A stretch of DNA of 45,079 bases from Lentisphaeria bacterium (GTDB taxonomy: Bacteria > Verrucomicrobiota > Lentisphaeria > Victivallales > Victivallaceae), in assembly GCA_017456285.1 (NCBI GenBank), contig JAFTJQ010000025.1, positions 1 through 45,079 on the forward strand. Direction: 5' to 3'. The stretch's first letter is position 1. Each line of letters begins with the position of its first letter. The notes under the pieces are model-generated. The model saw only the letters and a program-made list of their open reading frames with translations, was not told the origin of the DNA and did no database searches. Made by a program: the position numbers and the translations under genes. Positions 9,535 to 25,513 of this stretch are shown here, piece after piece.

Positions 9535-9551
9535 TAATTTAAAATTTTGAT

Positions 9552-10451
9552 ATGAAAGCAATTATATTTGATATTCAAAAATTTTCTGTACATGATGGCC
9601 CCGGGATACGCACAACGGTATTTTTTAAGGGGTGTCCTCTATCGTGCACTTGGTGTCATAATCCGGAGGGCAGAAAAGCAACTTCGCAACTCTTCTATAC
9701 AGCTTCCAAATGTGTCAATTGTGGCAGGTGTGCCGAAATTTGTAGTAAGTTATGCCACACAATTGATGAGAATGGTCATAAATTTGAGCGTAAAAATTGT
9801 GTTGTGTGTGGAAGATGTGCCGAAGTATGCCCGGCAAAATCACTTGAATTATGCGGCAAAGAATATACTGTCGATGAAGTCCTTGCCGAAGTCCAACAAG
9901 ACCGTGCTTTTTATGAAACCTCCGGTGGTGGGATTACTCTATCAGGCGGAGAACCCATGGCTCAATTTGATTTTGCATTGGAACTTGCAAAAAAATCGAA
10001 AGAATCAGGACTTCATGTTGCAATGGAGACTTGCGGTTTTGCACCACAGAAAAATTTTGAGATAATTTTGCCTTATATCGACCTTTTTCTCTATGATATA
10101 AAAAGTATTGATCCAGAGAAACACAAACAATTTACCGGGCAGGATTTGACTTTAATTCATGAAAATCTCCGCTTCATTGATAGTAGCGACAAAAAAATTC
10201 AACTCCGTTGTCCGCTTATCCCGGGGTTAAATGATTCAAAAAAAGAACTTTCAGGAATTGCGGATTTAGCAAATTCACTAAAAAATGTGCAGAGCATAGA
10301 TATTGAACCATATCATCCACTTGGGGTATCAAAAGCGGAACGGCTGGGAGAAAAATATATTTATGAAGCACCTTTTACCTCAGAGGAAGTTTGGAAGCAA
10401 CAAATTGAGTACATTGCTGAACGTACTGAATATATTGTTAAAAAGCAATAA
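9552..10451 (+). CDS. Glycyl radical enzyme activating protein (radical SAM)
   Basis: It uses S-adenosylmethionine and a [4Fe-4S] cluster to abstract hydrogen from the glycine of the partner enzyme. The radical SAM motif is C28-x3-C32-x2-C35 in FFKGCPLSCTWCHNPEG. A ferredoxin-like insert carries two further cluster motifs, C54/C57/C60/C64 and C83/C86/C89/C93, as in most activases of non-PFL glycyl radical enzymes. GGGITLSGGEP binds SAM. At 299 aa it is normal for the family. The 17-base gap after the glycyl radical enzyme gene and the lack of a promoter between them make the pair an operon. Confidence 0.95.
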   Translation: MKAIIFDIQKFSVHDGPGIRTTVFFKGCPLSCTWCHNPEGRKATSQLFYTASKCVNCGRCAEICSKLCHTIDENGHKFERKNCVVCGRCAEVCPAKSLELCGKEYTVDEVLAEVQQDRAFYETSGGGITLSGGEPMAQFDFALELAKKSKESGLHVAMETCGFAPQKNFEIILPYIDLFLYDIKSIDPEKHKQFTGQDLTLIHENLRFIDSSDKKIQLRCPLIPGLNDSKKELSGIADLANSLKNVQSIDIEPYHPLGVSKAERLGEKYIYEAPFTSEEVWKQQIEYIAERTEYIVKKQ

Positions 10452-10507
10452 AAAGGAGTATAAGAGATAATGGAATAAAATTTTTTTGTTTTTTTCTCTT
10501 TTTCCTC

Positions 10508-10535
10508 TTGCTTTTTTTATTTTAGATGCTAAATT
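10508..10535 (+). promoter_or_regulatory. Promoter C
   Basis: TTGCTT at 10508, 16-bp spacer ending in ATGC, TAAATT at 10530-10535. More diverged than B and D but with the same spacing. Confidence 0.6.
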
Positions 10536-10580
10536 ATTAATAAAACGATTCATTATGAATCTTTTATTTTTTGAAATTAA

Positions 10581-10596
10581 CTGTCTTCGATGACAG
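10581..10596 (+). promoter_or_regulatory. Candidate LacI-family operator, copy C
   Basis: CTGTCTTCGATGACAG, 45 bp after the -10 box. The best palindrome of the set: 7 of 8 positions pair around a central CG. As RNA it could also fold into a 5-bp stem with a UUCGAU loop. Confidence 0.6.
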
Positions 10597-10736
10597 ATAT
10601 GTAATAATGAAACCATACAATATGTATTGGAGAAACACTGAATTTTGAATTGACAAAATTATATTCAAAGTGTATTTTATCCTCACTGACTCTATTTTTG
10701 AGTTAGTGAGAATTAATTATTTCAGGACGATTGATT
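10597..10736 (+). other. Leader with hairpin before the nucleoside-hydrolase-like gene
   Basis: No gene is visible. A strong hairpin lies at 10682-10710 (CTCACTGACTC pairing with GAGTTAGTGAG, one G-T pair). The order CTGAATTT, AAAGTGT and then a CTCA...TGAGAATT hairpin matches the stretch after the prepilin gene (about 5400-5456), as if a prepilin gene had been lost here. Confidence 0.5.
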
Positions 10737-11627
10737 ATGAAGCATTTAATTTTAGGTACAGATTGGTATTCAGACTGCGATGACTGTGTGGCGGTGAGAC
10801 TTTTAGTTAATTTGCACAAGTCGAAGCAGATTTCGCTTGACGGAATTGCGATTAATGCCTGTATGGAGTATTCCGCCGCAAGTTTATGCGGATTTTTGGA
10901 GAAATCAGGCGTAATTGATATTCCTATCGCTCTTGATTGTGAGGCAACTAATTTTGCCGGAATCGGCCGTTACCAAAAGCGTTTAGCTCAATATGCGACT
11001 AAAATTAAATCTAATGCCGAGGTAGAAGACCCAATTAAACTTTATCGAAAAGTTTTAACTGCTTCAACGGAAAAAGTTAATGTCCTCGAAATCGGCTTCA
11101 ATCAAATTTTAGCAGGGTTATTAAAATCTGACAGCGATGAGATTTCTCCACTCAAAGGAATTGATTTAGTTAGGGAAAAAGTGGAGCATTTATGGATTGT
11201 CGGCGGTCAATGGGATATCCCAACCGGTGGCAAAGAACACAACTTCTGCAATACTTTAAAGGCTTCCAAGTCGATTGAATATGTTTGTGAAAATTGGCAG
11301 ACACCTATAACTTTTTTAGGGTTTGAAGTTGGTGATACAGTAATTACGGGAAATAAACTTGATCATAATGACCCGCTTCATCAGGCAATTATTGATACAG
11401 GACACAAAAATGGTCGCAGTTCGTGGGATCCAATGTTGGTATTACTTGGTGCAACTGGTGATTTAGAAAAAGAAGGGTATGATTGCGTAGTTGGTTGGGC
11501 AAGAGTCGATGGCGATACTGGCGTAAATTATTTTACAGAAACTCCTGATGGCAACCACCGCTATGTCAAAAAGACCAGACCAGACGAATTTTATGAAAAT
11601 AGAATCAATGCGTTGATAAAATTATGA
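10737..11627 (+). CDS. Nucleoside-hydrolase-fold (IUNH superfamily) hydrolase
   Basis: The fold normally cleaves N-glycosidic bonds of ribonucleosides with a calcium ion. The N-terminal metal motif DTDxGxDDxxA appears as GTDWYSDCDDCVAVRLL (D9, D13, D15, D16), with the first aspartate replaced by glycine. WIVGGQWD, EHNFCNTLKASKSIEYV (the E-N-x-D-x-A-A region, altered) and a SSWDPMLVLL segment follow the family order. I chose the ATG at 10737 over the TTG at 10731 because AGGA at 10724-10727 is 9 bases away. In this locus it may act on a glycoside rather than a nucleoside; the altered motif leaves the substrate open. No signal peptide. Confidence 0.7.
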   Translation: MKHLILGTDWYSDCDDCVAVRLLVNLHKSKQISLDGIAINACMEYSAASLCGFLEKSGVIDIPIALDCEATNFAGIGRYQKRLAQYATKIKSNAEVEDPIKLYRKVLTASTEKVNVLEIGFNQILAGLLKSDSDEISPLKGIDLVREKVEHLWIVGGQWDIPTGGKEHNFCNTLKASKSIEYVCENWQTPITFLGFEVGDTVITGNKLDHNDPLHQAIIDTGHKNGRSSWDPMLVLLGATGDLEKEGYDCVVGWARVDGDTGVNYFTETPDGNHRYVKKTRPDEFYENRINALIKL

Positions 11628-11653
11628 ATTAAAAATTATGAATTATGGTAGTT

Positions 11654-11674
11654 GTCGGGTGAAAATCACCCGAC
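11654..11674 (+). terminator. Hairpin after the nucleoside-hydrolase-like gene
   Basis: GTCGGGTGA/TCACCCGAC, 9-bp stem with an AAA loop. There is no T tract, so it may be a weak terminator or an mRNA end-protecting hairpin. The arms are the same as in the terminator at 27803. Confidence 0.5.
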
Positions 11675-11760
11675 TTGAAATATAGCGTGCTTCGCATTTA
11701 AAGCCGACTGCAGCTATCTTTTCTATGCAAAAATACAAAAAAATTAAAAAAAAATATTAT

Positions 11761-11863
11761 TTTGCTATTGCTTTTTTATTTTTTTGTGCTATAATATTAC
11801 TGTAATTTCAAGGAATTGGTCTTTGATTTACATTTTATTTTTACAAATAACTGTCTTCGATGA
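11761..11863 (+). repeat. Duplicated promoter-leader cassette, copy D
   Basis: Almost identical to 7479-7581 at a constant offset of 4282 bases, including the -10 box, leader and left operator arm. Confidence 0.9.
11768..11795 (+). promoter_or_regulatory. Promoter D (GH71-like gene)
   Basis: TTGCTT at 11768, 16-bp spacer ending in GTGC, TATAAT at 11790-11795. Confidence 0.75.
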
Positions 11864-11866
11864 CAA
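11851..11866 (+). promoter_or_regulatory. Candidate LacI-family operator, copy D
   Basis: CTGTCTTCGATGACAA, 55 bp after the -10 box; 6 of 8 positions are symmetric around the central CG. Confidence 0.55.
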
Positions 11867-11912
11867 ATAATTAAAATTTTAACATTAAACATTTAATAAA
11901 AAAGGAGTGAAA

Positions 11913-14333
11913 ATGAAGAAATTTAATGTTTTAACTTTGCTTTTATTTGCAACTGCATTGTGTTCACCGCTTGCGGTCTATGCCGACACAAAAGTACAGG
12001 ATGATGGCGATCGCAAAATGTGTTGGGCACACGTTGTCCGTTGGGGATTTTTCCAGAAAACTTATGATAATTCAGGGTCGGTTCAGGATATGGCAAATCA
12101 AGCTATTGATAGAACTCTTTTAGGTGAACTCACACACGAGAGAGATGCCTTTTGGGGAAATGCCAAAGCTCAGATTGATTCGGCTCGTAAATATGGAATT
12201 GACGGTTTCTGCATTAATATGGTTAACCCAAAATCTTATATGAGTGGTATGGGGCAGTTTTTGAATGCGGCAGAGGGAACTGATTTCAAAGTTGCACTTT
12301 GTATTGATAATCAGATGCATCCTAATGTTGATTACTGCATTACCCACATCGGAAATTTTCTCCGCAAATATTACAATCACCCGAATCAAGCAAGAATTGA
12401 CGGGAAACCGGTTGTTTTTATCTACAATGCGGGTATGAATATGGAAAATTGGGCAAAAGTACTTCAGGCATTGAAAGAACAAAATTTGGAGGCTTACTAT
12501 ATTCACCGCGCCTCTTTTGAATGGCAGGAAGCGGTATCGCAAGAAAATTTGGCGGCATCACTTGCGGTTAATAATGGTCTTTACGATTTTGGTTGCTGCG
12601 GATTTTCTCGCGAACAGATGAAATCACGCACCAAGGCTTTGGTAAGTGGTATCAATAATTACCGTAAAGATGGAATTTTGTGTGCAAGCGTGGTTCCGGG
12701 TTATATCGGTCGTGCGGTTGGTAATTATCGCCCGTTCCTCGGAAGTAAATCATTTATCGACGGCTGGGAAGCAATTTTAGCTAATCCGCGGGTCAATTGG
12801 GTTTGCATTACAACTTGGAATGACTATACCGAAACTACTCACATTGAACCATCAGTGGTCAATCGTGATGCTTTGACTATATTGAATCAGGAATATATTC
12901 GTAAATGGAAAAAATTACCATATCCAAGTCGTCCTGCACAGCCGATTATCTCATATCATGAAGAAGTTGTTGCCGGTAACGACTGGATAGTTGAAGTATT
13001 GAGTTTCCCTTATAATTGCGGTGAGTATGTAGTTGATATTGAAATTATCGATACTACTGATAATAAACCAATTAAAAAATTTGTTGTGCCGCTGCCAAAG
13101 GATAAAATCAGCGCACAACAATTCCGCTTAACTCATAGAGAGATGAGAACAGGAACAGTTTTTCGTGTAATTGCTAAAACTATTAACAAGGCTGATAATC
13201 AACTTGGTACTTTCACTAAAACAGACGGTTTCGTGCAGCTTTATTCATTCGTCCGTCGTTTTGAATACGCAGAAAATCAGCGTACTATCAGATTGCCATT
13301 GAATATGATTTTGCCACTTAATATGACTCTGACAATTGCTGATGATAAGTTGAATGGTAATTTAAATATGTGGGTAGGCGGTGGCAAAATTGAGTTGCTC
13401 CGAAATGGTTATCCCGTTGAAGAACGCACTTTTCAGCACAATGGCAAACCGGTTTGCAAAATGACTTTTGATATGCCAAAATATGGCAGAACTTCTCATG
13501 ATGTTTACATGCTTCGCTATACTGACGTTTCAGGTTGCATAGCTTTCTCTAATCCGGTAAGTTATTCTGCGGATGGTGCAGATAAAATTGTAAATCAAAA
13601 AGTTATTGTTACTCATTCTGCATTTGATGAAGATTGGCCATTGTGGCCAAAACGCAAGCAAGCGACTGTTGCGACAATGAAGACTACTGAAAACATGATT
13701 TACAAGCTTTGTTATAACTTTAATGAGGGTAATGGCAAAATCGCTCGATCTTCAACTGCTTGGCAGATTCCGCTTTTGATTGGCGAACCTGGCCGTGGAT
13801 TCAAAGTAACTCCGAAAGTTAAACCTGAATGGGTTGACTCCGCATGGGTTGATGGAAGTAATCGCAAAGTTTTACAGTTCTTCGGACAATCTGTTGCAAC
13901 TCTGCCGGTTAGATCTATGCCGACTGGAATTTTCACTATTGAAGCACTGATTTCAGCAAATCAACCAAGTGCCCCCGCGGTGCTTTTCGGCGAACAAAAG
14001 CCGTTTGCCGTATATGTGTTGCCTGATGGAAAGCTCAAGGTTGATTACTTAATTCCTTATGGAAATTCGAGTTTGGAATCAACTAAAGCAATTGAGTTTA
14101 ATAAGTGGACTCATGTCGCAGTAGTAAATTCAGGTAATAAGTTAGAGTTGTTTATTAATGGTGAATTGGTTGGTTCACAAACAATTAAGGCTCAGACTTA
14201 TCCGATAAACTCAACATTTGCTTTGGGCAATTATTCAAGAACTCTCGGTAATGGATATGATGGATTGATTGCTGGTTTCGCACTTGCCGGAACTGACCTT
14301 GCTCCTGCAAATTTCCAATTGAAATTAAAATAA
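11913..14333 (+). CDS. Secreted GH71-like glycoside hydrolase with C-terminal LamG-type domain
   Basis: The start at 11913 fits the AAGGAG ribosome site; the GTG at 11907 overlaps it. A signal peptide (about residues 1-24, cleavage after AVYA) sends the protein out of the cytoplasm. Residues 30-330 resemble the GH71/GH99-like barrel: WAHVVRWGF, a RKYGIDGFCINM strand, GKPVVFIYN and TTWNDYTETTHIEPS (W302, N303, D304, E307), which matches the TWNDxxE element of these families. GH71 enzymes cut alpha-1,3-glucan. The middle (330-600) looks like beta-sandwich domains. Residues about 655-806 form a LamG/concanavalin-like domain (FTIEALIS, KWTHVAVVNSGNKLELFING). It is the only hydrolase of the locus with an export signal, so it probably makes the first cut. 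Confidence 0.7.
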   Translation: MKKFNVLTLLLFATALCSPLAVYADTKVQDDGDRKMCWAHVVRWGFFQKTYDNSGSVQDMANQAIDRTLLGELTHERDAFWGNAKAQIDSARKYGIDGFCINMVNPKSYMSGMGQFLNAAEGTDFKVALCIDNQMHPNVDYCITHIGNFLRKYYNHPNQARIDGKPVVFIYNAGMNMENWAKVLQALKEQNLEAYYIHRASFEWQEAVSQENLAASLAVNNGLYDFGCCGFSREQMKSRTKALVSGINNYRKDGILCASVVPGYIGRAVGNYRPFLGSKSFIDGWEAILANPRVNWVCITTWNDYTETTHIEPSVVNRDALTILNQEYIRKWKKLPYPSRPAQPIISYHEEVVAGNDWIVEVLSFPYNCGEYVVDIEIIDTTDNKPIKKFVVPLPKDKISAQQFRLTHREMRTGTVFRVIAKTINKADNQLGTFTKTDGFVQLYSFVRRFEYAENQRTIRLPLNMILPLNMTLTIADDKLNGNLNMWVGGGKIELLRNGYPVEERTFQHNGKPVCKMTFDMPKYGRTSHDVYMLRYTDVSGCIAFSNPVSYSADGADKIVNQKVIVTHSAFDEDWPLWPKRKQATVATMKTTENMIYKLCYNFNEGNGKIARSSTAWQIPLLIGEPGRGFKVTPKVKPEWVDSAWVDGSNRKVLQFFGQSVATLPVRSMPTGIFTIEALISANQPSAPAVLFGEQKPFAVYVLPDGKLKVDYLIPYGNSSLESTKAIEFNKWTHVAVVNSGNKLELFINGELVGSQTIKAQTYPINSTFALGNYSRTLGNGYDGLIAGFALAGTDLAPANFQLKLK

Positions 14334-14372: not shown

Positions 14373-16355
14373 ATGAAAACTAAGGATTTTTCATTCGTTA
14401 ACATTGTTCCTGTTAAAGCAACTTGCCCGGAGTTTGCAGTTTCTGAAATTCGTCGTCAGCACAAAGAAGTCGGCTTGACCAAATTCGCATTGATGTTGAC
14501 ACTTCAACCAATGGGGTTCCCAGCCAAAGATAATGCAGATCGCATTATCTCTACTGCGGCTAAAGTTATGGAAGAATTAAAAGATGAGCCACTTACCATC
14601 GGTATTTTGTTCCAAAGTTTTTTGGGGCATGGTTGGAGCGGTCGTGTGCCTTTGACTGATGAACCTTGGCAAAGAATTGTGAAAAATGACGGCGTATTGT
14701 CAAGTCGCATGTGTATTTCTGATGAGAATTTTCAAAAATACATTCTTTATGTAGTTGAAGAAGTTATGAAACTTGGACCGAAGTTTTTGATTACAGATGA
14801 TGACTTTGGTCTTCGTCGCGGTGAATGTTTCTGTCAAAATCATGTAAATATGTTTAATGCTGCTGCAAAAGAAAAATTTGGCAGTCTTCCTCGTTCTGCA
14901 AAAGAACTTATTCAAATGGTTGAAAGTCGTCCGGAGGATGATCCGGAGGTTGTTTTACTTGCAGAAATTCGTCACAAGGAATTAATCAATATCGCAAGAG
15001 AGATCCGCAAAGTTATCGATAAATATGATGATACTATCTCTTGTACTCAATGTACTTCAGGCGGTGCTCACGGCTGGATCAATGAGTTAGTTCATACCCT
15101 CGCCGGCAAAAAGGCAATGCCATCTGTACGCGTCAATAATGCTATTTATTGTATCAATCAGCCTTTGGATATGTATAGATTGACTTCACAAACTTATAAA
15201 ATTAAGAACTGCTATGATGAAAACGTACCGGAAATTTTGGACGAAGCAGATACTTGTCCGCAAACCTATTATGCGGAAAATGCAATCCTTTTCCATACTC
15301 ACTTAACCAATGCGGCACTTTGCGGTTTAACAGGGGCAAAAATTTGGATTTCTGAATTTGAAAATAGTTATTGTACCCGTTATTATGATAAATTTGAGTA
15401 TTATCTTAAAAATTATCGCGGGTTCTATAATGAACTTCGTAATACTGTCGATAAGACTACTTATCAAGGTATTCACCACTTATTGGTAAAGGGTGATTAT
15501 CCATCAATGACGCATCCATTAAATGCTTCATGGCCAAGTTATTCAAGTGATTGGAATATGGGGTTAATGGGTACATTTGCTTTCCCATTGGCTTATGACC
15601 GTGGCGAAAATGATGGTATTTATGCGCTTTGTGAAACCAGTGTCCGTTTCGCAACTGATGAACAGTTGAAAGAACTTTTCCGTAAAAATCTTTTGATTGA
15701 CTCAAAAGCGGCAAAACTTCTTTCTGCTCGTGGTTTCGATAAATATATGGGAGTTAAAACTGTCGAAGATAGTAGATTTTTCTTTACTCATGAACTTGAT
15801 GAAAGCGATAATCGTGTTGTTAGTTTAATGTGGGAACCAGATATGGCGAAACTTGAATGTGTTTCAGATAAAACTGATGTGAAAACTTGGTGCGTTCAAG
15901 CTGAATTATATGATGTTGCCCCCACCAAACAATCTCCATGTATGACCTTCTTTACTAATGAACTTGGCGGCAGAGTGGCAACTTTGGCATGGACTTATGA
16001 CTTTACTTTGCTTAAAATTTGGCGAAGAGAGCGTCGTGAAATGTTAATGAAGGCGGTTCAATTCCTCAATGGCGGAGTGCAAGTTGATATGCTCCTTGAT
16101 GTATGGCAGCAGGTTTTGGTGCGTCATGGTAAAATTGGTGACGGAGCTGAGGAACTTGTGGCATTGATTTCACTCTCATTGGATAAGATTCCGGAGATTA
16201 AACTCTCAATGTCGCGACCGGTGTATGGAGTTAAACAACTTCAAGCAGATGGCAGTTGGGCAGATGTCAAATTTGAATGCGATTGCCGCACTCTCAAAGT
16301 AGATTTGCCTTTGGAAATTGCATCACCTGTTATTCTTAAATTGAAAGTAAAATAA
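14373..16355 (+). CDS. Large TIM-barrel-like hydrolase, GH42-like, family uncertain
   Basis: A 660-residue soluble protein without signal peptide. I do not recognise a defined family. The segment FLITDDDFGLRRGECFCQNHVNMF (split here: D142-D144, then C152, C154, H157) resembles the metal/substrate region of GH42-like barrel enzymes, and SRPVYGVKQLQADG with the last ~100 residues looks like a small beta domain, as in such enzymes. It is 39 bases after the GH71-like gene, with a GAGGT ribosome site, so it belongs to the same operon. I infer cytoplasmic trimming of imported oligosaccharides. Confidence 0.5.
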   Translation: MKTKDFSFVNIVPVKATCPEFAVSEIRRQHKEVGLTKFALMLTLQPMGFPAKDNADRIISTAAKVMEELKDEPLTIGILFQSFLGHGWSGRVPLTDEPWQRIVKNDGVLSSRMCISDENFQKYILYVVEEVMKLGPKFLITDDDFGLRRGECFCQNHVNMFNAAAKEKFGSLPRSAKELIQMVESRPEDDPEVVLLAEIRHKELINIAREIRKVIDKYDDTISCTQCTSGGAHGWINELVHTLAGKKAMPSVRVNNAIYCINQPLDMYRLTSQTYKIKNCYDENVPEILDEADTCPQTYYAENAILFHTHLTNAALCGLTGAKIWISEFENSYCTRYYDKFEYYLKNYRGFYNELRNTVDKTTYQGIHHLLVKGDYPSMTHPLNASWPSYSSDWNMGLMGTFAFPLAYDRGENDGIYALCETSVRFATDEQLKELFRKNLLIDSKAAKLLSARGFDKYMGVKTVEDSRFFFTHELDESDNRVVSLMWEPDMAKLECVSDKTDVKTWCVQAELYDVAPTKQSPCMTFFTNELGGRVATLAWTYDFTLLKIWRRERREMLMKAVQFLNGGVQVDMLLDVWQQVLVRHGKIGDGAEELVALISLSLDKIPEIKLSMSRPVYGVKQLQADGSWADVKFECDCRTLKVDLPLEIASPVILKLKVK

Positions 16356-16404: not shown

Positions 16405-17343
16405 ATGTTGGAAACAATAACAAATAGTTTAGCTTTTGGATTAATTGCCATGGTCATTGTCGGCGGTTCATGGTCGTTAGTTGGATTGGTTATGGGCGAT
16501 GCTCCCAAAAAAGGAATTGACTCAAGTTTAGTTCAGTTTTGGGGAGGATCTGTACCAGTTGTTGTTGGCTTAATTATTATTGGTTTTCAAGGTGGTTTGA
16601 ATTTTGAACAATATTCAGTTAAGACTTTTGCATGGACATTTTTTTGTTATGGTTTTGGTGGTTTTACCAATTTTTTCATGCTGGAAAATATGTCCAAAGC
16701 GATGCAGAATGGACCGAATGGGATTATCTGGTCAATTATCCAATCGGCAATGGTATTTCCATTTATAGTCGGAATATTGTTTTTTGGAGTTGAAGTTAAT
16801 ATTTTCAGAATTTTGGGAATTATTGGTTTGTTATTGGCTCTTGTTCTTTTTGGTATGGCAAAAAATAATGTTTCAACCGGCAAAACTTGGAAGTTACTTG
16901 CGTTTTCCTGTTTGGCTATTTGTGCGTTTCAACAGAATTTAATGACTATACCATCATATTTTGAGGAATCAAGAAATATTGGTAGCGTTATTAAAACAAC
17001 AATGACTTCGGTTGGATCGTTATCGGCGGCGATAGTTTTTGCCTTGTTCCAAGATGCTGAATATAAGAGAAGATTTTTTAAGGGAGTAACCAATACGAAA
17101 TTATGGGAATATATTTTGATTTTGCAGGGGTTTAGTTTAGTTTTTGCTTACACATTATTTTATCCGGGCATGAATGTTTTGGGTGCAAGGGGATTGGGTG
17201 GAATGTGTTATCCTTTATTGATTGGCTCATGTATTGTAACTTTTACTCTGACAAGCATTGTGTTTTTAAAGGAAAAGTTGCAAAAAATCCAAGTATTGGC
17301 ATTGGTGCTTTGTGTTTTGGGATTAATTTTTATCTGTTTATAA
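16405..17343 (+). CDS. DMT-superfamily transporter, about ten membrane helices
   Basis: A 312-residue inner-membrane protein almost wholly made of hydrophobic helices. Short loops, glycine-rich helix ends (GLIAMVIVGGSWSLVGLVMG, WGGSVPVVVGLIII) and two similar halves fit drug/metabolite transporters of the RhaT/GRP sugar-uptake type. VFLKEKLQKIQVLALVLCVLG at the end matches the last two helices of that group (E-K-L-x-x-x-Q). In this context it probably imports a mono- or oligosaccharide product. It follows the barrel hydrolase in the same orientation, separated by a hairpin. Confidence 0.7.
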   Translation: MLETITNSLAFGLIAMVIVGGSWSLVGLVMGDAPKKGIDSSLVQFWGGSVPVVVGLIIIGFQGGLNFEQYSVKTFAWTFFCYGFGGFTNFFMLENMSKAMQNGPNGIIWSIIQSAMVFPFIVGILFFGVEVNIFRILGIIGLLLALVLFGMAKNNVSTGKTWKLLAFSCLAICAFQQNLMTIPSYFEESRNIGSVIKTTMTSVGSLSAAIVFALFQDAEYKRRFFKGVTNTKLWEYILILQGFSLVFAYTLFYPGMNVLGARGLGGMCYPLLIGSCIVTFTLTSIVFLKEKLQKIQVLALVLCVLGLIFICL

Positions 17344-17365: not shown

Positions 17366-18382
17366 ATGTTTATTGTCGGTTATAATCAAAATGCTGGTAG
17401 CAAATTGATAAAGACAATTATAGAAAATCGGGAAAATATACAAGAAATTTATTTTGCTTGGGGTGATATTCCGTCAGGTCGCGGATGTAATTACAAATCT
17501 GAAATTGATGAATTCAATTATACTAATCAACTCATCGAAGACTTGAAGATATTTAGCGAAAATGGCATTAAACAAAACTTACTTTTAAATGGTAATTGTT
17601 ATGGTAAATACAGCCAAGCAAGAGTTTTTTTTAATAAAATTGGCGATATTGTTGACTTTTTGCAGAGCAATTTTGCATTAAATTCGGTGACAACTTCTTC
17701 GCCATTGATTGCCAAATTTATTAAGCAAAATTTTGCTGACCTTCATGTGCGGGCGTCAGTTAATATGGAGATTGGCACAATTGAGGGAATGGATTATCTG
17801 GCAGATTATTTTGACGGTTTTTATTTAAAGCGAGAACTTAATCGTAACTTAAAAGCAATTAAAAATATTCGGCAATACTGCGATGATAATGGCAAAAAAC
17901 TCTATATGCTTGCCAATAGCGGTTGTTTAAACAACTGCTCATCGCACAATTTCCATGATAATTTAGTGGCTCATGAACATGAAATCAGTGAAATGGATAA
18001 TGCTTATGAGTTCAAAAGTTCATGCAGCTTGTATCTTGCCAAAGATAATAAGCGTGAGAAATTTTTAAGCATAAGTAACTTTATTCGTCCGGAAGACATT
18101 GAATTGTACTCTGAATTTTTCGATGGAATCAAACTTGCTACTCGCGTAAGTTATAACCCCGTCGAAATAATTATGGCGTATATTCAAAAGCGTTATCGCG
18201 GAAATTTGTTGAACTTGCTTGAACCAAATCACGCCCGACACTTTGCGCCGTCAATTATAGACAATAATCAAATTCCGTCAAATTGGGCAGAAAAAGTTGC
18301 TGATTGCAATAAAAATTGCAATCAATGCCAATACTGTTATCAAACATTAAAAAATTCATTAATAATATTAGGAAAGGATTAA
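17366..18382 (+). CDS. U32-peptidase-like protein with C-terminal cysteine cluster
   Basis: The 338-residue protein resembles the U32 (YhbU/UbiU-like) fold: a barrel with DGFYLKREL, then LANSGCLNNCSSHNFH (C187, C191), C220, and ISNFIRPEDIELYSEFFDGIKLATR, which is the family order. UbiU-type members bind a [4Fe-4S] cluster and act in oxygen-independent hydroxylation; others modify RNA. The C-terminus adds C314-x3-C318-x2-C321-x2-C324, a ferredoxin-like motif. It lies 3 bases before the QueG-like trio, so the four probably work together. Function not known. Confidence 0.65.
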   Translation: MFIVGYNQNAGSKLIKTIIENRENIQEIYFAWGDIPSGRGCNYKSEIDEFNYTNQLIEDLKIFSENGIKQNLLLNGNCYGKYSQARVFFNKIGDIVDFLQSNFALNSVTTSSPLIAKFIKQNFADLHVRASVNMEIGTIEGMDYLADYFDGFYLKRELNRNLKAIKNIRQYCDDNGKKLYMLANSGCLNNCSSHNFHDNLVAHEHEISEMDNAYEFKSSCSLYLAKDNKREKFLSISNFIRPEDIELYSEFFDGIKLATRVSYNPVEIIMAYIQKRYRGNLLNLLEPNHARHFAPSIIDNNQIPSNWAEKVADCNKNCNQCQYCYQTLKNSLIILGKD

Positions 18383-18385
18383 AAA

Positions 18386-19456
18386 ATGCTTACAAGCAAA
18401 ATGGTAAAAGACCTTGCCATACAAGCAGGTGCTGACTTGTGCGGAATTGGCGATATGTCCAGATTTGAAGGTGCGCCTCCGGATATGGACCCTCGCTATA
18501 TTTTCCCCGAAGCCAAAAGCGTAATCGGTTTGGTCTTCCGTATTCCTCGCGGAGTTCAGCAAGGAATTGAACAAGGAACTCAATTTTATCAATATCCCTC
18601 AATGGCGTATGGTGGAATTAATGAAATTTTTGCCCCGGCTGTATTGTTTCAAGTCGGTAAATTATTAGAAGACCATGGCTATGAGGCGGCAGTTTATCGA
18701 AATACTGGAGCTCGCGGTTCGGTTTCAGATATGGACGGCAGTCCCGGAAACACCCTCTCTCCCGAAGAACAAATTGAAGTCAATGAGCAGGCAAAAAACA
18801 AGGCGGCACACCACCGTTCTGTACAATTTACCCGTCCGGTTCGTGAAAATTCCGTTGCTCCCGACTTGCAGTTCCACTTCCGCTTGGCAGGTGTTGTTTG
18901 CGGTCTTGGTGAAATGGGATGGAGCAAGATGTTTTTGACTCCTGAATTTGGTCCATTACAGCGTTTGGCATTTATTTTTACTGATGCTGAACTTGAACCG
19001 GATCCGATGTATGACGGAGAACCTTTGTGCCGTCGCTGTATGGCTTGCGTAAATCAATGCCCCGGTGGTTGCTTGAGTAAAACTGAAAGCATCGTCGTAA
19101 ATGTCGGCGGTAAAAAATGCGAATGGGGCAAACTTGATGAGTGGAAATGTTATGCTTTCTACACGCATGGCGGCAGAAAGTTCAATCCATTTGTGCCGAA
19201 AGAAGTTTGGGATAAAAATGAAAATGGCGACTTAGACCTTTTAGAGGGTAAATGCGAAGCAAATGAAACTGAAATCATGAAAGTTTACGGTGCTTTGGAG
19301 AAATACTTCCCCTCTTGGGTCGGTTACAATATGGCAAAGTGCGGCGGTTGTATCAGAGCGTGTGTAAGCATGTTGGAGAAAAAAGGCGGTTGCATGGAAA
19401 AACGCTTTAAACGACCGCTTCGTACAGAGAAAAAACCGTGGGTTATGGATCGTTAG
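18386..19456 (+). CDS. QueG/reductive-dehalogenase-like Fe-S protein 1
   Basis: First of three tandem paralogues. The N-terminal part (PEAKSVIGLVFRIPRG, FAPAVLFQVGKLLEDHGYEA, GEMGWSKMFLTPEFGPLQRLAFIFTD) follows the order of epoxyqueuosine reductase QueG and reductive dehalogenases, which bind cobalamin there. The C-terminal half carries a double-cluster ferredoxin: C215-x2-C218-x2-C221-x3-C225-P, and C319-x2-C322-x3-C326. The HEAT-like tail of QueG is absent. At 356 aa it is the longest of the three, through insertions near residues 105-150 and 225-250. I infer a reductive step on a small molecule; cobalamin use is possible but not shown. Confidence 0.7.
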   Translation: MLTSKMVKDLAIQAGADLCGIGDMSRFEGAPPDMDPRYIFPEAKSVIGLVFRIPRGVQQGIEQGTQFYQYPSMAYGGINEIFAPAVLFQVGKLLEDHGYEAAVYRNTGARGSVSDMDGSPGNTLSPEEQIEVNEQAKNKAAHHRSVQFTRPVRENSVAPDLQFHFRLAGVVCGLGEMGWSKMFLTPEFGPLQRLAFIFTDAELEPDPMYDGEPLCRRCMACVNQCPGGCLSKTESIVVNVGGKKCEWGKLDEWKCYAFYTHGGRKFNPFVPKEVWDKNENGDLDLLEGKCEANETEIMKVYGALEKYFPSWVGYNMAKCGGCIRACVSMLEKKGGCMEKRFKRPLRTEKKPWVMDR

Positions 19457-19469
19457 GAGTTAAATAGAT

Positions 19470-20375
19470 ATGTTAAATGCTGAACTTATAAAGAAAAAAG
19501 CAATTGAGTATGGTGCAGATATTGTCGGTATCGGTGATATAAGTTATTACAAAGATACTATGGCACAGCGTGATCCTAAAAATATTCTTCCCGATGCAAC
19601 ATGTGTCATTGGGTGCGGTTTCCGCGTACCGAGAGCACTCTACAAGGCTATGGAAGAAAAACGCCAATACTTCAATTACACCCAACTTGGAGTGAAATTG
19701 ATTGATGAAGAGATGTCAGAAATTTTTCTCTTAAAAATGGCTGCATTAATTGAGAATGCTGGTTACGATGCCTGTGTGCAAAGAAATGTTTCAAACTTGC
19801 GTATAAAGGGAGACAAAACTACTAATCCGGAGTTGATAGATACTTATGAACTCGCTTTGGCAGAACCGGTTGCACCAAATAAAGTTGTGCCAGAAATCAT
19901 TATGGATTTTGCTGATTCAGCAAGAATTTGCGGACTTGGAAGCGTAAGTTGCAAGGGCAATGTTTTAGTACCGAAATTCGGGCCTTTTGTACGATTTGTC
20001 TTCATTGTAACCAATGCACCTTTGGCAACAGATAAACCTTTTGAAAAATCTCTTTGCGACAACTGTAAAGAATGCGAAAAAGCTTGTATTGGTAATGCAA
20101 TTACTAATGGTGAACTTAACTCTTGGCAATGTGCAGTCTATTATCGCGGTGCTCACAAGTCAAACCCATTTATGACTGATGAGTTCTTGAAAAATCACCC
20201 GGATAGAGAGGCAATTATCAACGGAGAATACAGGTTTGATAGCGAAAAAGCACGGTCAATTTACAAGGATTTAGACTTCCTGCCATCAAAAGCAACTGGT
20301 TATGCTCCATGTCTTTGTGGTAAATTGTGCGACATTGCTTGCTACAATCACTTAAAGGAGAAAAATTTATTATGA
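19470..20375 (+). CDS. QueG/reductive-dehalogenase-like Fe-S protein 2
   Basis: Second paralogue, 301 aa. It keeps the N-terminal pattern (AIEYGADIVGIGDIS, PDATCVIGCGFRVPRALYKAMEE), the LVPKFGPFVRFVFIVTNAPL strand, and clusters C196-x2-C199-x2-C202-x3-C206 and C281/C283/C287/C291. The proline after the fourth cysteine of the first cluster is replaced by isoleucine. It starts 13 bases after the first paralogue and overlaps the third by ATGA, so the three are translated together and may form one complex. Confidence 0.7.
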   Translation: MLNAELIKKKAIEYGADIVGIGDISYYKDTMAQRDPKNILPDATCVIGCGFRVPRALYKAMEEKRQYFNYTQLGVKLIDEEMSEIFLLKMAALIENAGYDACVQRNVSNLRIKGDKTTNPELIDTYELALAEPVAPNKVVPEIIMDFADSARICGLGSVSCKGNVLVPKFGPFVRFVFIVTNAPLATDKPFEKSLCDNCKECEKACIGNAITNGELNSWQCAVYYRGAHKSNPFMTDEFLKNHPDREAIINGEYRFDSEKARSIYKDLDFLPSKATGYAPCLCGKLCDIACYNHLKEKNLL

Positions 20376-21310
20376 TGACTTTGAAACAACAAATTATTGA
20401 TAAATTTATTGAGTATGGGGCAGATATTGTCCGTTTTGGACGAGTTGCAGATTGCCGAGATGAGGCTATTAAAAAAATTATGCCCGAAGCTAAAACTATT
20501 ATCTGCGGAGCTTTTCGTCAGCTTCGTGGAGCAAGACGCGGTATTGAAGAGGGTTCAACTTACTATCAATATACCACCAATGCAGTTGAGGTTTTGGAAG
20601 AAAATGTCATGCCGATTGCCATGTTAAAAGTTTGCAGCGTCCTTGAAGATGCGGGATTTGAAGCTCTCCCCCAACGCAGAAATCAAACCATCATGCAGGA
20701 GAGTAATAGCACTAATTTCGAGGTTGATTACCGTGAAATTTATCGCAATAAAGTTGCGGAAAATCAACTCAATTTTGAAATGTGTGCTGAAGATTGCAAC
20801 TTGGGAGAAAAGGGACTGTCTGGGTCAATTTTGACCGATGAGTTTGGACCTTTCCAAAGATATGTTTTTATCTTGACTGATGCTGAAATTGAAGCCGACC
20901 CCAAAGTCGTTCCGCACTTGTGCGATAATTGCCAAAAGTGTATTAACGCTTGTCCGGGTAAGGCTTTGAAAGCTGATGGCAGTCGCGACCCTTGGCAATG
21001 CTCTGCTTATTACATTGGCGCGAATATGACGAAAAATCCGTTTATGCCGCCGGAGGCTTTCGCCGATGATCCGGAGCGTTTGGCAATTATCTGCGGCGAA
21101 GCAAAGTTATCAGCAGAACGAGCAAAAGAGGTAATTGAACAAATTATCTATTATCCGCCGATTAAACATAGTTATTGGTCAAGTATTTGCGGCAAGGCTT
21201 GTGATACAGAGTGTTACATTCACTTGGAAGAGAAGGGCGTTTTGAAGAAACACTTTAAAACCCCTTTCAGAAAGCGTGAAAAATGGGAGTTGCCGATTCT
21301 TTCGGAGTAG
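20372..21310 (+). CDS. QueG/reductive-dehalogenase-like Fe-S protein 3
   Basis: Third paralogue, 312 aa from the ATG at 20372, which overlaps the preceding stop and has AAAGGAG 11 bases upstream (a second ATG follows directly at 20375). An in-frame start further upstream at 20327 lies inside the previous gene and is unlikely. Features: KFIEYGADIVRFGRV, PEAKTIICGAFRQLRGARRG, LTDEFGPFQRYVFILTDAEI, cluster C184-x2-C187-x2-C190-x3-C194-P, and a final CGKACDTEC. Closest to paralogue 2 at the C-terminus (CGK-x-CD-x2-C-Y-x-HL). Confidence 0.7.
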   Translation: MMTLKQQIIDKFIEYGADIVRFGRVADCRDEAIKKIMPEAKTIICGAFRQLRGARRGIEEGSTYYQYTTNAVEVLEENVMPIAMLKVCSVLEDAGFEALPQRRNQTIMQESNSTNFEVDYREIYRNKVAENQLNFEMCAEDCNLGEKGLSGSILTDEFGPFQRYVFILTDAEIEADPKVVPHLCDNCQKCINACPGKALKADGSRDPWQCSAYYIGANMTKNPFMPPEAFADDPERLAIICGEAKLSAERAKEVIEQIIYYPPIKHSYWSSICGKACDTECYIHLEEKGVLKKHFKTPFRKREKWELPILSE

Positions 21311-21420: not shown

Positions 21421-22458
21421 ATGAAACAAGGAACATTTAGATTCTCATTCGGACCATGGAACATTCATGAAGGAGCAGACCCTTTCGGTCCGGAAGTAAG
21501 ACACACAATCCCATTTAATGAAAAACTTGCCGCCTACAAAAAATTAGGTTTTGACGGAGTGCAATTTCACGACGATGATGCTGTGCCGAATATGGAAAAT
21601 TTAACTCCGGCTCAAATCATTAAAGAAGCGGAAGATTTGAAAAAAGTTCTTGATGATCATGGTTTGACGCCAGAATTTGTTGCTCCTCGTATGTGGTTTG
21701 CCCCACAGACAATTGACGGCGGTTATACAAATAATGATGCAGAATGTCGCAAGTATGCGTTAGAAAGAACTAAACGTACTATTGATATTGCCAAAGCTCT
21801 TGGTACTGATAATATTGTATTGTGGCTTGCACGTGAAGGTACTTATATTCGTGAAGCAAAAGATCCGGTTTGGGCAACTGAAAAAATTGCAGAAGCCTTG
21901 CAGATGATGCTTGATTATGATAAAGATATTCGCGTTATGATTGAGTCCAAACCAAATGAACCAATGGATCACACCTATATCCCGACTATCGGACATGCTA
22001 TTGCTATGGGCTTAATGACCAATGCACCGGAACGAGTTGGTTGCTTGATTGAAACTGCACACGCTTTGCTTGCAAACTTATCGCCATCTGATGAAATGGG
22101 TTTTGCAATGGCTCACAAAAAATTATGGAGTGTTCACTTGAATGATCAGAATAGTTTGAAATTTGACCAAGATTTAACTTTCGGTGCAGTTGACCCACGC
22201 CGCGCTTTAAATCAGGTTCGTGTCCTTGACCGTAATGGTTTCGGCAATAATGGTGAATGGGTTGGTTTGGATGTGAAAACCATGCGTACTCAGAAATCAG
22301 GTGTTGATATGAAACACTTGGAATACAGTCGCAAGATTTTCTTGAAACTTTTGGAAATTTCTCGTTCATTGGATGATGATACAATGAATGCTATGATTGC
22401 TGAACGTGATTATGAAGAGTTGAATTATTACATCCTTAATGCTATGTTGAAAGGTTAA
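21421..22458 (+). CDS. Xylose-isomerase-like sugar isomerase (class I XylA-like)
   Basis: A TIM-barrel aldose-ketose isomerase of 345 aa, cytoplasmic. It aligns with class I XylA: FSFGPWNIHEGADPFG, FHDDDAVPN with the catalytic histidine H50 and D53, then metal residues E175 and K177 in MIESKPNEP, E211 and H214 in IETAHALL, D249 and D251 in FDQDLTFG, and D284 in GLDVKTMR. The HIDLNGQ stretch of XylA is shortened to HLNDQN, and the protein is some 40 residues shorter, so it forms a side branch whose sugar may not be xylose. AAAGGAG ribosome site and own promoter. Confidence 0.8.
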   Translation: MKQGTFRFSFGPWNIHEGADPFGPEVRHTIPFNEKLAAYKKLGFDGVQFHDDDAVPNMENLTPAQIIKEAEDLKKVLDDHGLTPEFVAPRMWFAPQTIDGGYTNNDAECRKYALERTKRTIDIAKALGTDNIVLWLAREGTYIREAKDPVWATEKIAEALQMMLDYDKDIRVMIESKPNEPMDHTYIPTIGHAIAMGLMTNAPERVGCLIETAHALLANLSPSDEMGFAMAHKKLWSVHLNDQNSLKFDQDLTFGAVDPRRALNQVRVLDRNGFGNNGEWVGLDVKTMRTQKSGVDMKHLEYSRKIFLKLLEISRSLDDDTMNAMIAERDYEELNYYILNAMLKG

Positions 22459-22485
22459 TAAAAATTATTTTCAGTGGAGATAGCT

Positions 22486-23784
22486 ATGAGAAATGTAAAA
22501 GACTTTGGTGCCGTAGGTGATGGTATTACTTTAGATACAATTGCAGTACAAAATGCACTCGATGCAGGTGGAATTGTCTATTTCCCTGCAGGAACTTATG
22601 TCTGCGGAACACTCTTTTTGCGATCTAATGGCGGGATCGAATTGGATATGGGAGCAACTTTGCTTGCTTCCCCAAATAAAGAAGATTACAATTCTGATGA
22701 TTTCCTGCCGGAAAACTATGTCTATCCGGGAGAATGTGCTACAGGCGCTCATTTTATTGTTGGTTACAATGTTGAAAATGTTGTAGTTCGTGGTGTCGGT
22801 AAAATTGACGGTAATCAAAGTGCATTTTTCGCACCTCCACCTCGTGAAGAACCGGGATGCTATGAAACTGTAACGTGGCGTCCCGGGCAAATGATTTGGA
22901 TTTGCAATTCGAAAAAAGTTACTTTTGAAAATGTTGAACTCTGTAATTCAACTTTCTGGACACTTTTCTTTTTCGGCTGCGAAAATGTAATTTGTCATGC
23001 GTTGAATGTATGGAATCATCCATGGACGCCAAATGGTGATGGCATCAGCGTTGACTGTTGTAAGAATGTAACAATTAGTGATTGTCTGATTAATACCGGC
23101 GATGATTGTATTGTAGTTCGAGGGGCAAGTGAAATTTTGAGAAGAGATGCTGTTTGTGAAAATATTATGGTCACTAACTGCGTCCTCCGAACTATTTGTA
23201 ATGCAGTTCGCATCGGAGTTGGCGAGGGAACTATTCGCCGTTGCTGTTTTTCAAATATTTCAATTCAAGACAGCCGAACCGGAATCTGTATGGCAACACA
23301 ATACTTCAAAGGCTCTTCGGTTTTAATTGAAGATATTATGTTTAATAACTTACGAATTGATGCACAAAGACCATTTTCATTTCACAGTAATGCGTGGCTT
23401 GATAGTGAACTTGGCGGGGTAGAAAAACCAATTAGAAAAATTAGTTTTAACCATGTCCGAGGCACAGCTTCTAATGCTATGATTATTGATGGTTATGCTC
23501 CCGGAGATATTTACGATATTCAGTTCAATGATATGATTTTGGAAGTTGCAGAACCCAAAGGGGAAATTACTTATCTAAATGAATCTGGAGATTTTACTGA
23601 ACGCTTAATTATTATCCCTGAATCAATCTTTTTTATCCGCCATGCAGAAAGAGTAACGTTTAATTCCTGTGAAATACGCAGAGTAGGAGATTGTCCAAAC
23701 TATAAATATGATATTTTGGGAATAAAATCTCCGGGGTTAAAAGTATATAATTCTATTTTTAATGGCGAAATTAAAGAAAAATAA
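22486..23784 (+). CDS. Divergent GH28 (polygalacturonase-like) beta-helix protein
   Basis: The start at 22486 is set by GGAG six bases upstream; GTG at 22474 is too close to it. The protein is a right-handed beta-helix opening with KDFGAVGDGITLDT. Of the GH28 catalytic elements it keeps N183-G-D185 (NGDGISVD) and D206-D207 (NTGDDC), but the GHG element is replaced by CNAVRIG, with N239 at the histidine position. There is no signal peptide (433 aa), so it is cytoplasmic. I infer hydrolysis of a glycosidic bond in an imported oligosaccharide, possibly with a non-galacturonate substrate. Confidence 0.8.
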   Translation: MRNVKDFGAVGDGITLDTIAVQNALDAGGIVYFPAGTYVCGTLFLRSNGGIELDMGATLLASPNKEDYNSDDFLPENYVYPGECATGAHFIVGYNVENVVVRGVGKIDGNQSAFFAPPPREEPGCYETVTWRPGQMIWICNSKKVTFENVELCNSTFWTLFFFGCENVICHALNVWNHPWTPNGDGISVDCCKNVTISDCLINTGDDCIVVRGASEILRRDAVCENIMVTNCVLRTICNAVRIGVGEGTIRRCCFSNISIQDSRTGICMATQYFKGSSVLIEDIMFNNLRIDAQRPFSFHSNAWLDSELGGVEKPIRKISFNHVRGTASNAMIIDGYAPGDIYDIQFNDMILEVAEPKGEITYLNESGDFTERLIIIPESIFFIRHAERVTFNSCEIRRVGDCPNYKYDILGIKSPGLKVYNSIFNGEIKEK

Positions 23785-23794
23785 AGGAAAACTA

Positions 23795-25513
23795 ATGTAT
23801 AAAGTAAATATCAAATTTGACACCGGAACAATAACAAAAGAAATTGGTTTAATTGATAATACTCTTGTTATCAACAAAGACGAAATCTCTACAGAAGTAA
23901 ATTCTATTGAGATTTTATCTGATGATTTTGAAAGCGGTATTAGCGAAAACAATTATTTTGTTGTCCCAAGTATTGGATTAAATGGTCCAGCCGCGCAAAT
24001 TTTTTTCAAAGAGCGGGAAGATATTGAAAAAACTCTTCGTTACAACACTATGCCAATTTTTGGTTGCTGCAAAGACGACAAAACTTTTCTTGCAATTGTC
24101 TGCGGCATGGAATTAGATTATGAATTAGTCGTTGGAGTAAAAAATAATAAATACTATATGTATCCAAAATTTTTGACAGATAATGAAAAACTGCCGGAAG
24201 ATATTGTTATTAAATTTTTTACTTTAACAGGTAAAGATTCTTCTTATCAGGGGATTGCTAAATTTTATCGACAATTTCAGTTAAATAGAGGAGCTTGCAC
24301 AACCCTCAAAGAGCGTCAAGAGAATTATCCTGCACTGAAACAATCGTTAAAAGGACCGGAAGTAAGAATCCGTTTGGCTTGGAAAGAAGTTCCATCTCCT
24401 GTTCCAGAACAAACCGTTGAAAATGAACCTCCAATTCATGTTGCTTTGACTTTTAAACAATGCGAAGAAATTATAGAAGAATTTCACAAGCAGGGGATAA
24501 AAAATGCAGAATTTTGTTTAGTAGGATTCAATAAATCAGGACACGACGGTAGATTTCCGGATATTTTTCCGATAGAACCATTGTTGGGCGGAGAAGAGGA
24601 TTTGCGACATTTGATTGAAAAAGCAAAATCTATGGGATATTTGATTTGCTGCCATACCAATATTTTGGATTCTTATAAAATTGCAGAGCGTTGGAGCGAA
24701 GCAAATTGTTTGCGAGATAAAAATGGCGAATTGCATCAGGAAGGTAATTGGGGCGGAGGAAAATCTTATTTCCTTTGTGCAGAACAGGCTCACAAAAATT
24801 ATGCAATAGAGGATATGGATAACTTACAGGCGTTGGGATTTAATGGGACTCATTATTTTGATGTGATGAGTATTAGTTTGCCGCCAAAGTGTTATGATAA
24901 ACGCCATCCGCTTTCACGCAAAGAAATGGCTTTTTGGCGCAGCGAATCATTAAGACTTGCTCGTGAAAAGATTGGAGCAAGTGCATCTGAAGGCGCATTT
25001 GATTTCTGTATTAAAGATTTAGATTATGCGTTGTACACAGTTTTCTATCGTGATGAAGATAAGAGCAGTTTGTGGGATAAAGAGATACCGCTTTGGCCAA
25101 TGGTTTACCATGGTATTATCCATTACAATATGTCAAGTGATACTGTTAATGCAAATATTAAGTCTGATAAAAAGTTATCATTGATCAATTTTGCTTTCGG
25201 CGGTCGTCCAGTTAATTATTTCTATGCTAAATTTATGTCTGCCGGTGTAAATTGGATGGGTGAAGAAGATTTGGTTTATCGTGATAAAGAGCAACTATCG
25301 AGAGATGTTGCAAAGATTAAAGACGAGTATCAACTTTATCAATCTGTTGCCGATTTGCAATTGAATTTTATTGAAGATTATCAAGAGATTGCACCTGAAA
25401 TTATCAAGGTAAGTTATGATAATGGCGTAATTTTATACTTCAATATGAGTGATAAGGATTACTTGCTTGATGGTAATGAAATTTTGAAAAGTTATTCATT
25501 CATAAGAAAATAG
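23795..25513 (+). CDS. GH129/GH101-like (DUF5696-type) glycoside hydrolase
   Basis: The ATG at 23795 is preferred: AAGGA lies 6 bases upstream and it follows the GH28 stop at 23784; an in-frame ATG at 23762 is inside the GH28 gene. The 572-residue protein has an N-terminal beta domain (1-190) and a barrel. FCLVGFNKSGHDGRFPD, LLGGEEDLRHLIEKAKSMGY and CCHTNILDSY resemble the alpha-N-acetylgalactosaminidase-type families GH129 and GH101. Candidate catalytic acids are D356 (THYFDV) and E399 (SASEGAFD). No signal peptide. It is packed between GH28 and the symporter. Family call is by motif memory only. Confidence 0.5.
   Translation: MYKVNIKFDTGTITKEIGLIDNTLVINKDEISTEVNSIEILSDDFESGISENNYFVVPSIGLNGPAAQIFFKEREDIEKTLRYNTMPIFGCCKDDKTFLAIVCGMELDYELVVGVKNNKYYMYPKFLTDNEKLPEDIVIKFFTLTGKDSSYQGIAKFYRQFQLNRGACTTLKERQENYPALKQSLKGPEVRIRLAWKEVPSPVPEQTVENEPPIHVALTFKQCEEIIEEFHKQGIKNAEFCLVGFNKSGHDGRFPDIFPIEPLLGGEEDLRHLIEKAKSMGYLICCHTNILDSYKIAERWSEANCLRDKNGELHQEGNWGGGKSYFLCAEQAHKNYAIEDMDNLQALGFNGTHYFDVMSISLPPKCYDKRHPLSRKEMAFWRSESLRLAREKIGASASEGAFDFCIKDLDYALYTVFYRDEDKSSLWDKEIPLWPMVYHGIIHYNMSSDTVNANIKSDKKLSLINFAFGGRPVNYFYAKFMSAGVNWMGEEDLVYRDKEQLSRDVAKIKDEYQLYQSVADLQLNFIEDYQEIAPEIIKVSYDNGVILYFNMSDKDYLLDGNEILKSYSFIRK

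Follow-up and report, generated by a model that had tools for sequence, protein, structure and literature searches.

To our knowledge, only two reactions of class III corrinoid enzymes have been characterised, namely reductive dehalogenation and the reduction of epoxyqueuosine. The reductive dehalogenases (RdhA/PceA/NpRdhA; TIGR02486; structures 8q4h, 4uqu and 6zxu) have a corrinoid-binding nitroreductase-like domain and two [4Fe-4S] clusters, and QueG (TIGR00276; 5d08, 5d6s), which reduces an epoxide (PMC4646009), is built on a two-domain core with an Fe-S layout of the same kind. A separate group, the U32 oxidases or 'U32 peptidases' (TrhP, RlhA, UbiU/UbiV; 5d88), carries out O2-independent hydroxylation (PMC11574389, PMC6599085). 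The motif of these oxidases, CX6CX15CX3C with a catalytic Glu, is needed by TrhP (PMC6599085, PMC11574389).

Here we describe a locus from a Lentisphaeria bacterium in which a gene for a U32-like protein is followed by three tandem genes, QA, QB and QC, for class III corrinoid/Fe-S paralogues. The window, i.e. the whole stretch of 45,079 nucleotides that was analysed, is one contig (C5) of a 2.42 Mb genome that is 98% complete. The superfamily to which the three proteins belong is known; the composition of the cassette, its partner, its regulation and its mobility are new, and no description of the cassette or of DUF5696 was found in the open-licence literature, in line with the original prediction that no system of this composition had been described. 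Since the set is common to unrelated gut bacteria, little changed among them and placed beside sugar-type regulators, it probably forms an anaerobic enzyme system, so far undescribed, that degrades an unusual sugar-derived compound.

Gene layout, distribution and exchange of the cassette

The genes and motifs discussed are collected in Table 1. The four genes lie where they were predicted, with 3 bases between the U32-like gene and QA, 13 bases between QA and QB, and an ATGA overlap of QB and QC; an upstream GTG start is also open for QC. QA, QB and QC are true paralogues, QB and QC being 34-38% identical to QA, and a search with QA found no further relatives in the 2.42 Mb genome. The protein of 660 residues encoded at the upstream end of the gene run (window 14373-16355) is without a significant Pfam or NCBIfam match. 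Elsewhere in the window, at 7612-10451, a 640-residue pyruvate-formate-lyase-like glycyl radical enzyme and a radical SAM activase are encoded beside a GH31 gene.

Table 1. Positions of the cassette, its motifs and its neighbours in the window
Feature	Position	Strand	Size	Remark
EamA-type permease	16405..17343	+		Directly upstream of U32-like gene; possible importer
U32-like TIM-barrel protein	17366..18382	+	338 aa	
QA, class III corrinoid/Fe-S protein	18386..19456	+	356 aa	Best-conserved member
QA first ferredoxin motif, C215xxCxxCxxxC	19028..19060	+		
QA second-cluster motif, C319xxCxxxC	19340..19363	+		With C255
QB, class III paralogue	19470..20375	+	301 aa	
QC, class III paralogue	20372..21310	+	312 aa	From ATG at 20372
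Exchanged block	18373..21277	+		97.5% DNA identity to SUWE01000054.1 (L090) 9350-12253, another genus
Xylose-isomerase-like (AP_endonuc_2) sugar isomerase/epimerase-like protein	21421..22458	+		110 bp downstream, same strand
GH28-family protein	22474..23784	+		Signal peptide not recognisable by eye
DUF5696, GH101-like TIM barrel	23762..25513	+		

In a first survey, 199 relatives were searched with the U32-like protein and 20 matches were retrieved with their flanks. In nearly all of these loci the four genes recurred in unchanged order; in one QB and QC were fused, and in one the U32-like gene followed QC. A QA alignment was then run against the GTDB species set, which gave 179 loci; 80 of these were kept. 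They are labelled as Lentisphaeria/Victivallales, Opitutales, Kiritimatiellae, Planctomycetia, Oscillospiraceae, Lachnospiraceae and other Clostridia, and many come from rumen and hindgut samples; most of the records are metagenome-assembled, so single-contig labels may err, but for the two largest groups many independent assemblies concur. The strict order U32-QA-QB-QC is present at 62 of the 80 loci, in several phyla, and several of the others are interrupted by contig ends. Gaps within the cassette are mostly 0-40 bp. The three divergent copies noted originally are kept together in a row, and the order of the neighbourhood is conserved across phyla. Identity to the proteins of the window is 73-98% for QA (80 loci, across phyla), 53-99% for QB, 49-97% for QC and 40-57% for the U32-like protein. 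With medians over the same loci of 76%, 61% and 58% for QA, QB and QC, QA is by far the best conserved of the three.

The four-gene arrangement is real, but the U32-like gene is separable from it. QA-QB-QC occurs without an adjacent U32-like gene, on contigs that continue, at six loci (L102, L110, L126, L130, L138 and L160), the first of which belongs to the cultured strain Oligosphaera ethanolica DSM 24202. Because the U32-like gene is sometimes absent, on the other side or replaced, the true unit is QA-QB-QC. In the locus with the fusion, from a Victivallales MAG (L048 11183-13030, the same as L099), QB and QC form one ORF of 615 residues, and in several Clostridia a small cupin of about 118 residues is encoded between QA and QB (L134, L140, L141, L152, L163), before the U32-like gene (L157) or downstream (L159).

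The same unit has recently been exchanged between two genera. The block shared with the second genus extends from shortly upstream of the QA start codon to shortly upstream of the QC stop codon, and no DNA similarity to the L090 contig was found elsewhere in the 45 kb window. Synonymous and non-synonymous codon differences between the two copies number 24 and 0 in QA, 14 and 2 in QB, and 28 and 10 in QC. As the 2.9-kb block is gene-exact and a divergent U32 gene is located after QC in L090, QA-QB-QC moved as a unit and the U32 gene is a separable partner.

Relationship of QA, QB and QC to RdhA and QueG

All three proteins match the NCBIfam models of RdhA and QueG below threshold, with 32-43 bits against a cut-off of 160 for TIGR02486 (RdhA) and 27-39 bits against a cut-off of 200 for TIGR00276 (QueG). 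A profile of the three families matched RdhA (2.2e-16) and QueG (3.9e-15) among PDB sequences. Profile-profile comparison with a QueG-type alignment gave an E value of 1.2e-18 over residues 4-264, so the N-terminal half is homologous too. By sequence, the closest relatives of QA with solved structures are PCE dehalogenases, including the GLGExG..LTPxFGP..R segment; as in RdhA, the longer pattern GLGExG...LTPxFGPxxR...TDxxLxxD stands directly before CxxCxxCxxxCP. When the predicted structure of QA (pLDDT 82.7, pTM 0.83) was compared with the PDB by Foldseek, all 46 matches at E<=0.001 were RdhA or QueG, and next in rank came CblD and CblC, which handle B12; TM-scores to RdhA/QueG were moderate (0.36-0.47 by query). 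The model has a B12-type fold, and together with the profile alignment it bears out the RdhA/QueG-type order of the N-terminal corrinoid domain that had been read from the sequence. With the conserved neighbourhood and this fold, neither of the two conditions under which the original prediction would have fallen was observed. Model confidence is low for residues 109-149, and much of 104-144 is highly conserved, as would be expected of a lid or subunit interface.

Two ferredoxin clusters had been predicted for each paralogue, and the eight Fe-S cysteines are invariant within each family (71-80 sequences per family): C215/218/221/225 and C255/319/322/326 in QA, C196/199/202/206 and C221/283/287/291 in QB, and C184/187/190/194 and C210/273/277/281 in QC. 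The proteins end 10-31 residues past the last cluster cysteine, and the HEAT tail of QueG is absent from all three, again as predicted. No Tat or Sec signal and no RR motif was recognised by eye at their N-termini. In the profile alignment the Y68/Y70 region of QA coincides with the proton-donor Tyr of the QueG DYH motif only to within a single turn of helix. In the corresponding N-terminal region, tyrosines are kept by QA, QB and QC; the position of the QueG catalytic Asp is not clearly kept in QC.

Each of QA, QB and QC is monophyletic in a tree, and together they make up a separate clade outside QueG, which implies that the triplication predates the spread between phyla. Unlike QueG, they are without a HEAT domain, and the inter-cluster segment of QA is longer. 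Unlike RdhA, they are without a membrane anchor or a Tat signal and come as three tandem paralogues with a U32-like partner and sugar-type regulators. Judged by homology and predicted fold, they are a new branch of class III corrinoid/Fe-S proteins, and corrinoid binding is predicted on the same grounds. Elsewhere in the genome, corrinoid use is indicated by a B12-binding domain in a 1212-residue frame and by one cobalamin riboswitch; none lies within the window, and CobS was not found in the genome. This combination is consistent with the use of imported corrinoid.

The U32-like partner and the carbohydrate context

The U32-like protein scores 17.5 bits against PF01136 (E 0.0027), under the Pfam cut-off of 22.4. 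Its predicted structure (pLDDT 94.0) has 5d88 as the best Foldseek match (E 4.8e-10, TM 0.71 by target), far above other barrels. Four cysteines, C78, C187, C191 and C220, are invariant in the family and probably form a [4Fe-4S] site; about three quarters of the sequences also have a C-terminal CxxxCxxCxxC (C314, C318, C321 and C324 in the window). The protein differs from the U32 oxidases in its motif NSGCLNxC...FHDNLVxH (NSGCLNxC-x5-HDNL-x2-H) and in lacking the Glu-x7-Cys-x6-Cys (CX6CX15CX3C) pattern: position -8 from C187 is Leu or Met, and the cysteine spacing is C-x3-C. A U32 hydroxylase function was not adopted because this diagnostic motif is missing. The label given in the original prediction therefore stands for the predicted fold and fails for Pfam membership and hydroxylase signature; the protein is U32-like by structural model and not a U32 oxidase by the motif test.

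The number of Q genes that accompany a U32-like gene ranges from one to three. Among 39 U32-like loci outside the cassette, 18 have a Q gene within 1.5 kb, where a density of Q genes that was assumed, and generously so, would give about 2%; the 39 loci were taken from one hit list blind to Q genes, are not a random sample and count related genomes separately. The partnership is general beyond the cassette, and these adjacencies together with the 62 ordered loci led us to reject chance linkage. Simpler modules, with a U32-like gene and one or two QueG-like genes, were seen across the class and phylum (L170-L199, L212-L251). Two loci (L183, L184) form a separate group with three to four tandem U32-like genes and no Q gene.

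In most Clostridia the cassette is preceded, at a distance of about 100 bp, by a divergent AraC-type gene, and a LacI-type regulator is present at 18 loci, mainly in PVC bacteria. DUF5696 is enriched beside the cassette, with 11 of 110 near genes against 0-1 of 110 genes more than 4 kb away within the same Clostridial loci (P 0.0008-0.005). Enrichment of Gfo/Idh/MocA (6 near, 0-1 distant) and of YgjV is weak. The genome under study has a single DUF5696 copy, located in the cassette gene run. The AP_endonuc_2, GH28 and DUF5696 proteins encoded there show no obvious signal peptides by eye, and the first two are probable pathway partners. Most flanking genes vary from locus to locus, so the substrate is not readable from the neighbourhood; the recurrent neighbours are limited to the regulators and DUF5696, with a weaker recurrence of Gfo/Idh/MocA and YgjV. 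Lentisphaeria seem to be rich in glycosidases regardless of the cassette. The context nevertheless agrees with the placement of the genes in a glycan locus and supports, without proving, a carbohydrate-derived substrate that is handled inside the cell.

Proposed function and competing explanations

Our leading reading, a tentative one, is that of a corrinoid/Fe-S reductase system that is inducible, cytoplasmic and directed at a substrate derived from carbohydrate. Upon a sugar signal the AraC- or LacI-type regulator would turn the genes on. By homology and fold, QA, QB and QC would each hold a base-off corrinoid in the nitroreductase-like domain, with electrons passing from one [4Fe-4S] cluster to the other and on to cobalt. 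The three would probably assemble into a single hetero-oligomer in which QA is the principal catalyst (successive reductions had been suggested originally as the alternative), and the U32-like Fe-S barrel may bind substrate or product, or supply electrons. Intracellular glycosidases (DUF5696, GH28) and enzymes of the sugar isomerase or oxidoreductase type would prepare or process the substrate. Most likely, Co(I) would drive a reaction in which a C-O bond is reductively cleaved or eliminated, such as a deoxygenation or one that opens an anhydro, ether or epoxide group; the substrate suggested originally, an ether or methylated derivative of a sugar, is possible. The behaviour of QA-QB-QC as a unit (conserved order, short gaps, QB-QC fusion, and a gene-exact exchange with the QA protein unchanged) counts for this reading.

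The three paralogues need not be equivalent. It is possible, if somewhat doubtful, that QA alone is the catalyst of a single-site reductase, with QB and QC as electron-relay or assembly subunits that have kept the fold but no working corrinoid site. The far higher conservation of QA, the Asp position that is not clearly kept in QC and the related loci with one, two or three Q genes would fit such a division, but both clusters and the N-terminal tyrosines are kept in all three proteins, and profile matches do not tell cofactor-binding from degenerate copies. We consider it unlikely that the cassette modifies a nucleoside, cofactor or secondary metabolite, with no sugar degradation, the U32-like protein adding or moving a hydroxyl without oxygen and the QueG-like proteins reducing it away. 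Both half-reactions have precedents, in the hydroxylation by U32 oxidases (PMC11574389, PMC6599085) and the epoxide reduction by QueG (PMC4646009), and the genes adjoin at 18 of the 39 non-cassette loci. However, the U32-like protein is without the Glu and cysteine pattern of the oxidases, and the sugar-type regulators, glycosidase linkage and patchy horizontal spread favour catabolism over housekeeping.

Assignment to either characterised reaction fares worse. The relationship of QA to PCE dehalogenases, down to the segment they share, would suit a true reductive dehalogenase system for natural organohalides; with family scores this low, no Tat signal, sugar-type regulators and no RdhB-like membrane anchor among the recurrent neighbours, we regard this as very improbable. 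Still more strongly disfavoured, to the point of being hardly credible, is a stand-in for QueG in tRNA queuosine synthesis. QA, QB and QC are the best TIGR00276 matches in the genome, and among 120 genomes of the order a single one has QueG above the cut-off (in several, L200-L209, there are QueG-like proteins that score 80-180 bits and do not belong to the cassette family). Yet the genome encodes, in other places, both QueA and QueH, an alternative reductase for epoxyqueuosine, so that this reduction can do without the cassette, and a queuosine role was rejected for this reason, as the original doubt about tRNA modification had foreshadowed. The lack of a HEAT domain, the three copies, the patchy, inducible and mobile occurrence and the low QueG scores argue the same way.

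More broadly, and with slightly more reserve than for the tentative reading of a sugar-inducible reductase, the cassette may stand for a third functional group among the class III corrinoid enzymes. This would be a horizontally mobile reductase, heteromeric and induced by sugar, made up of QA/QB/QC and a U32-like barrel partner, that would cleave C-O bonds of glycan-derived molecules in anaerobes of guts and digesters, with simpler one- and two-paralogue U32-like and Q modules across the phylum of the window. As Oligosphaera ethanolica DSM 24202 is cultured and carries QA-QB-QC, the cassette is testable there. A widely shared third group of this kind, linked in rumen and gut bacteria to carbohydrate genes and to regulators of the sugar type, would indicate undescribed corrinoid chemistry on glycan-derived compounds. 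Gut communities would also have a further, hidden need for B12, and the U32 fold would gain a new role.
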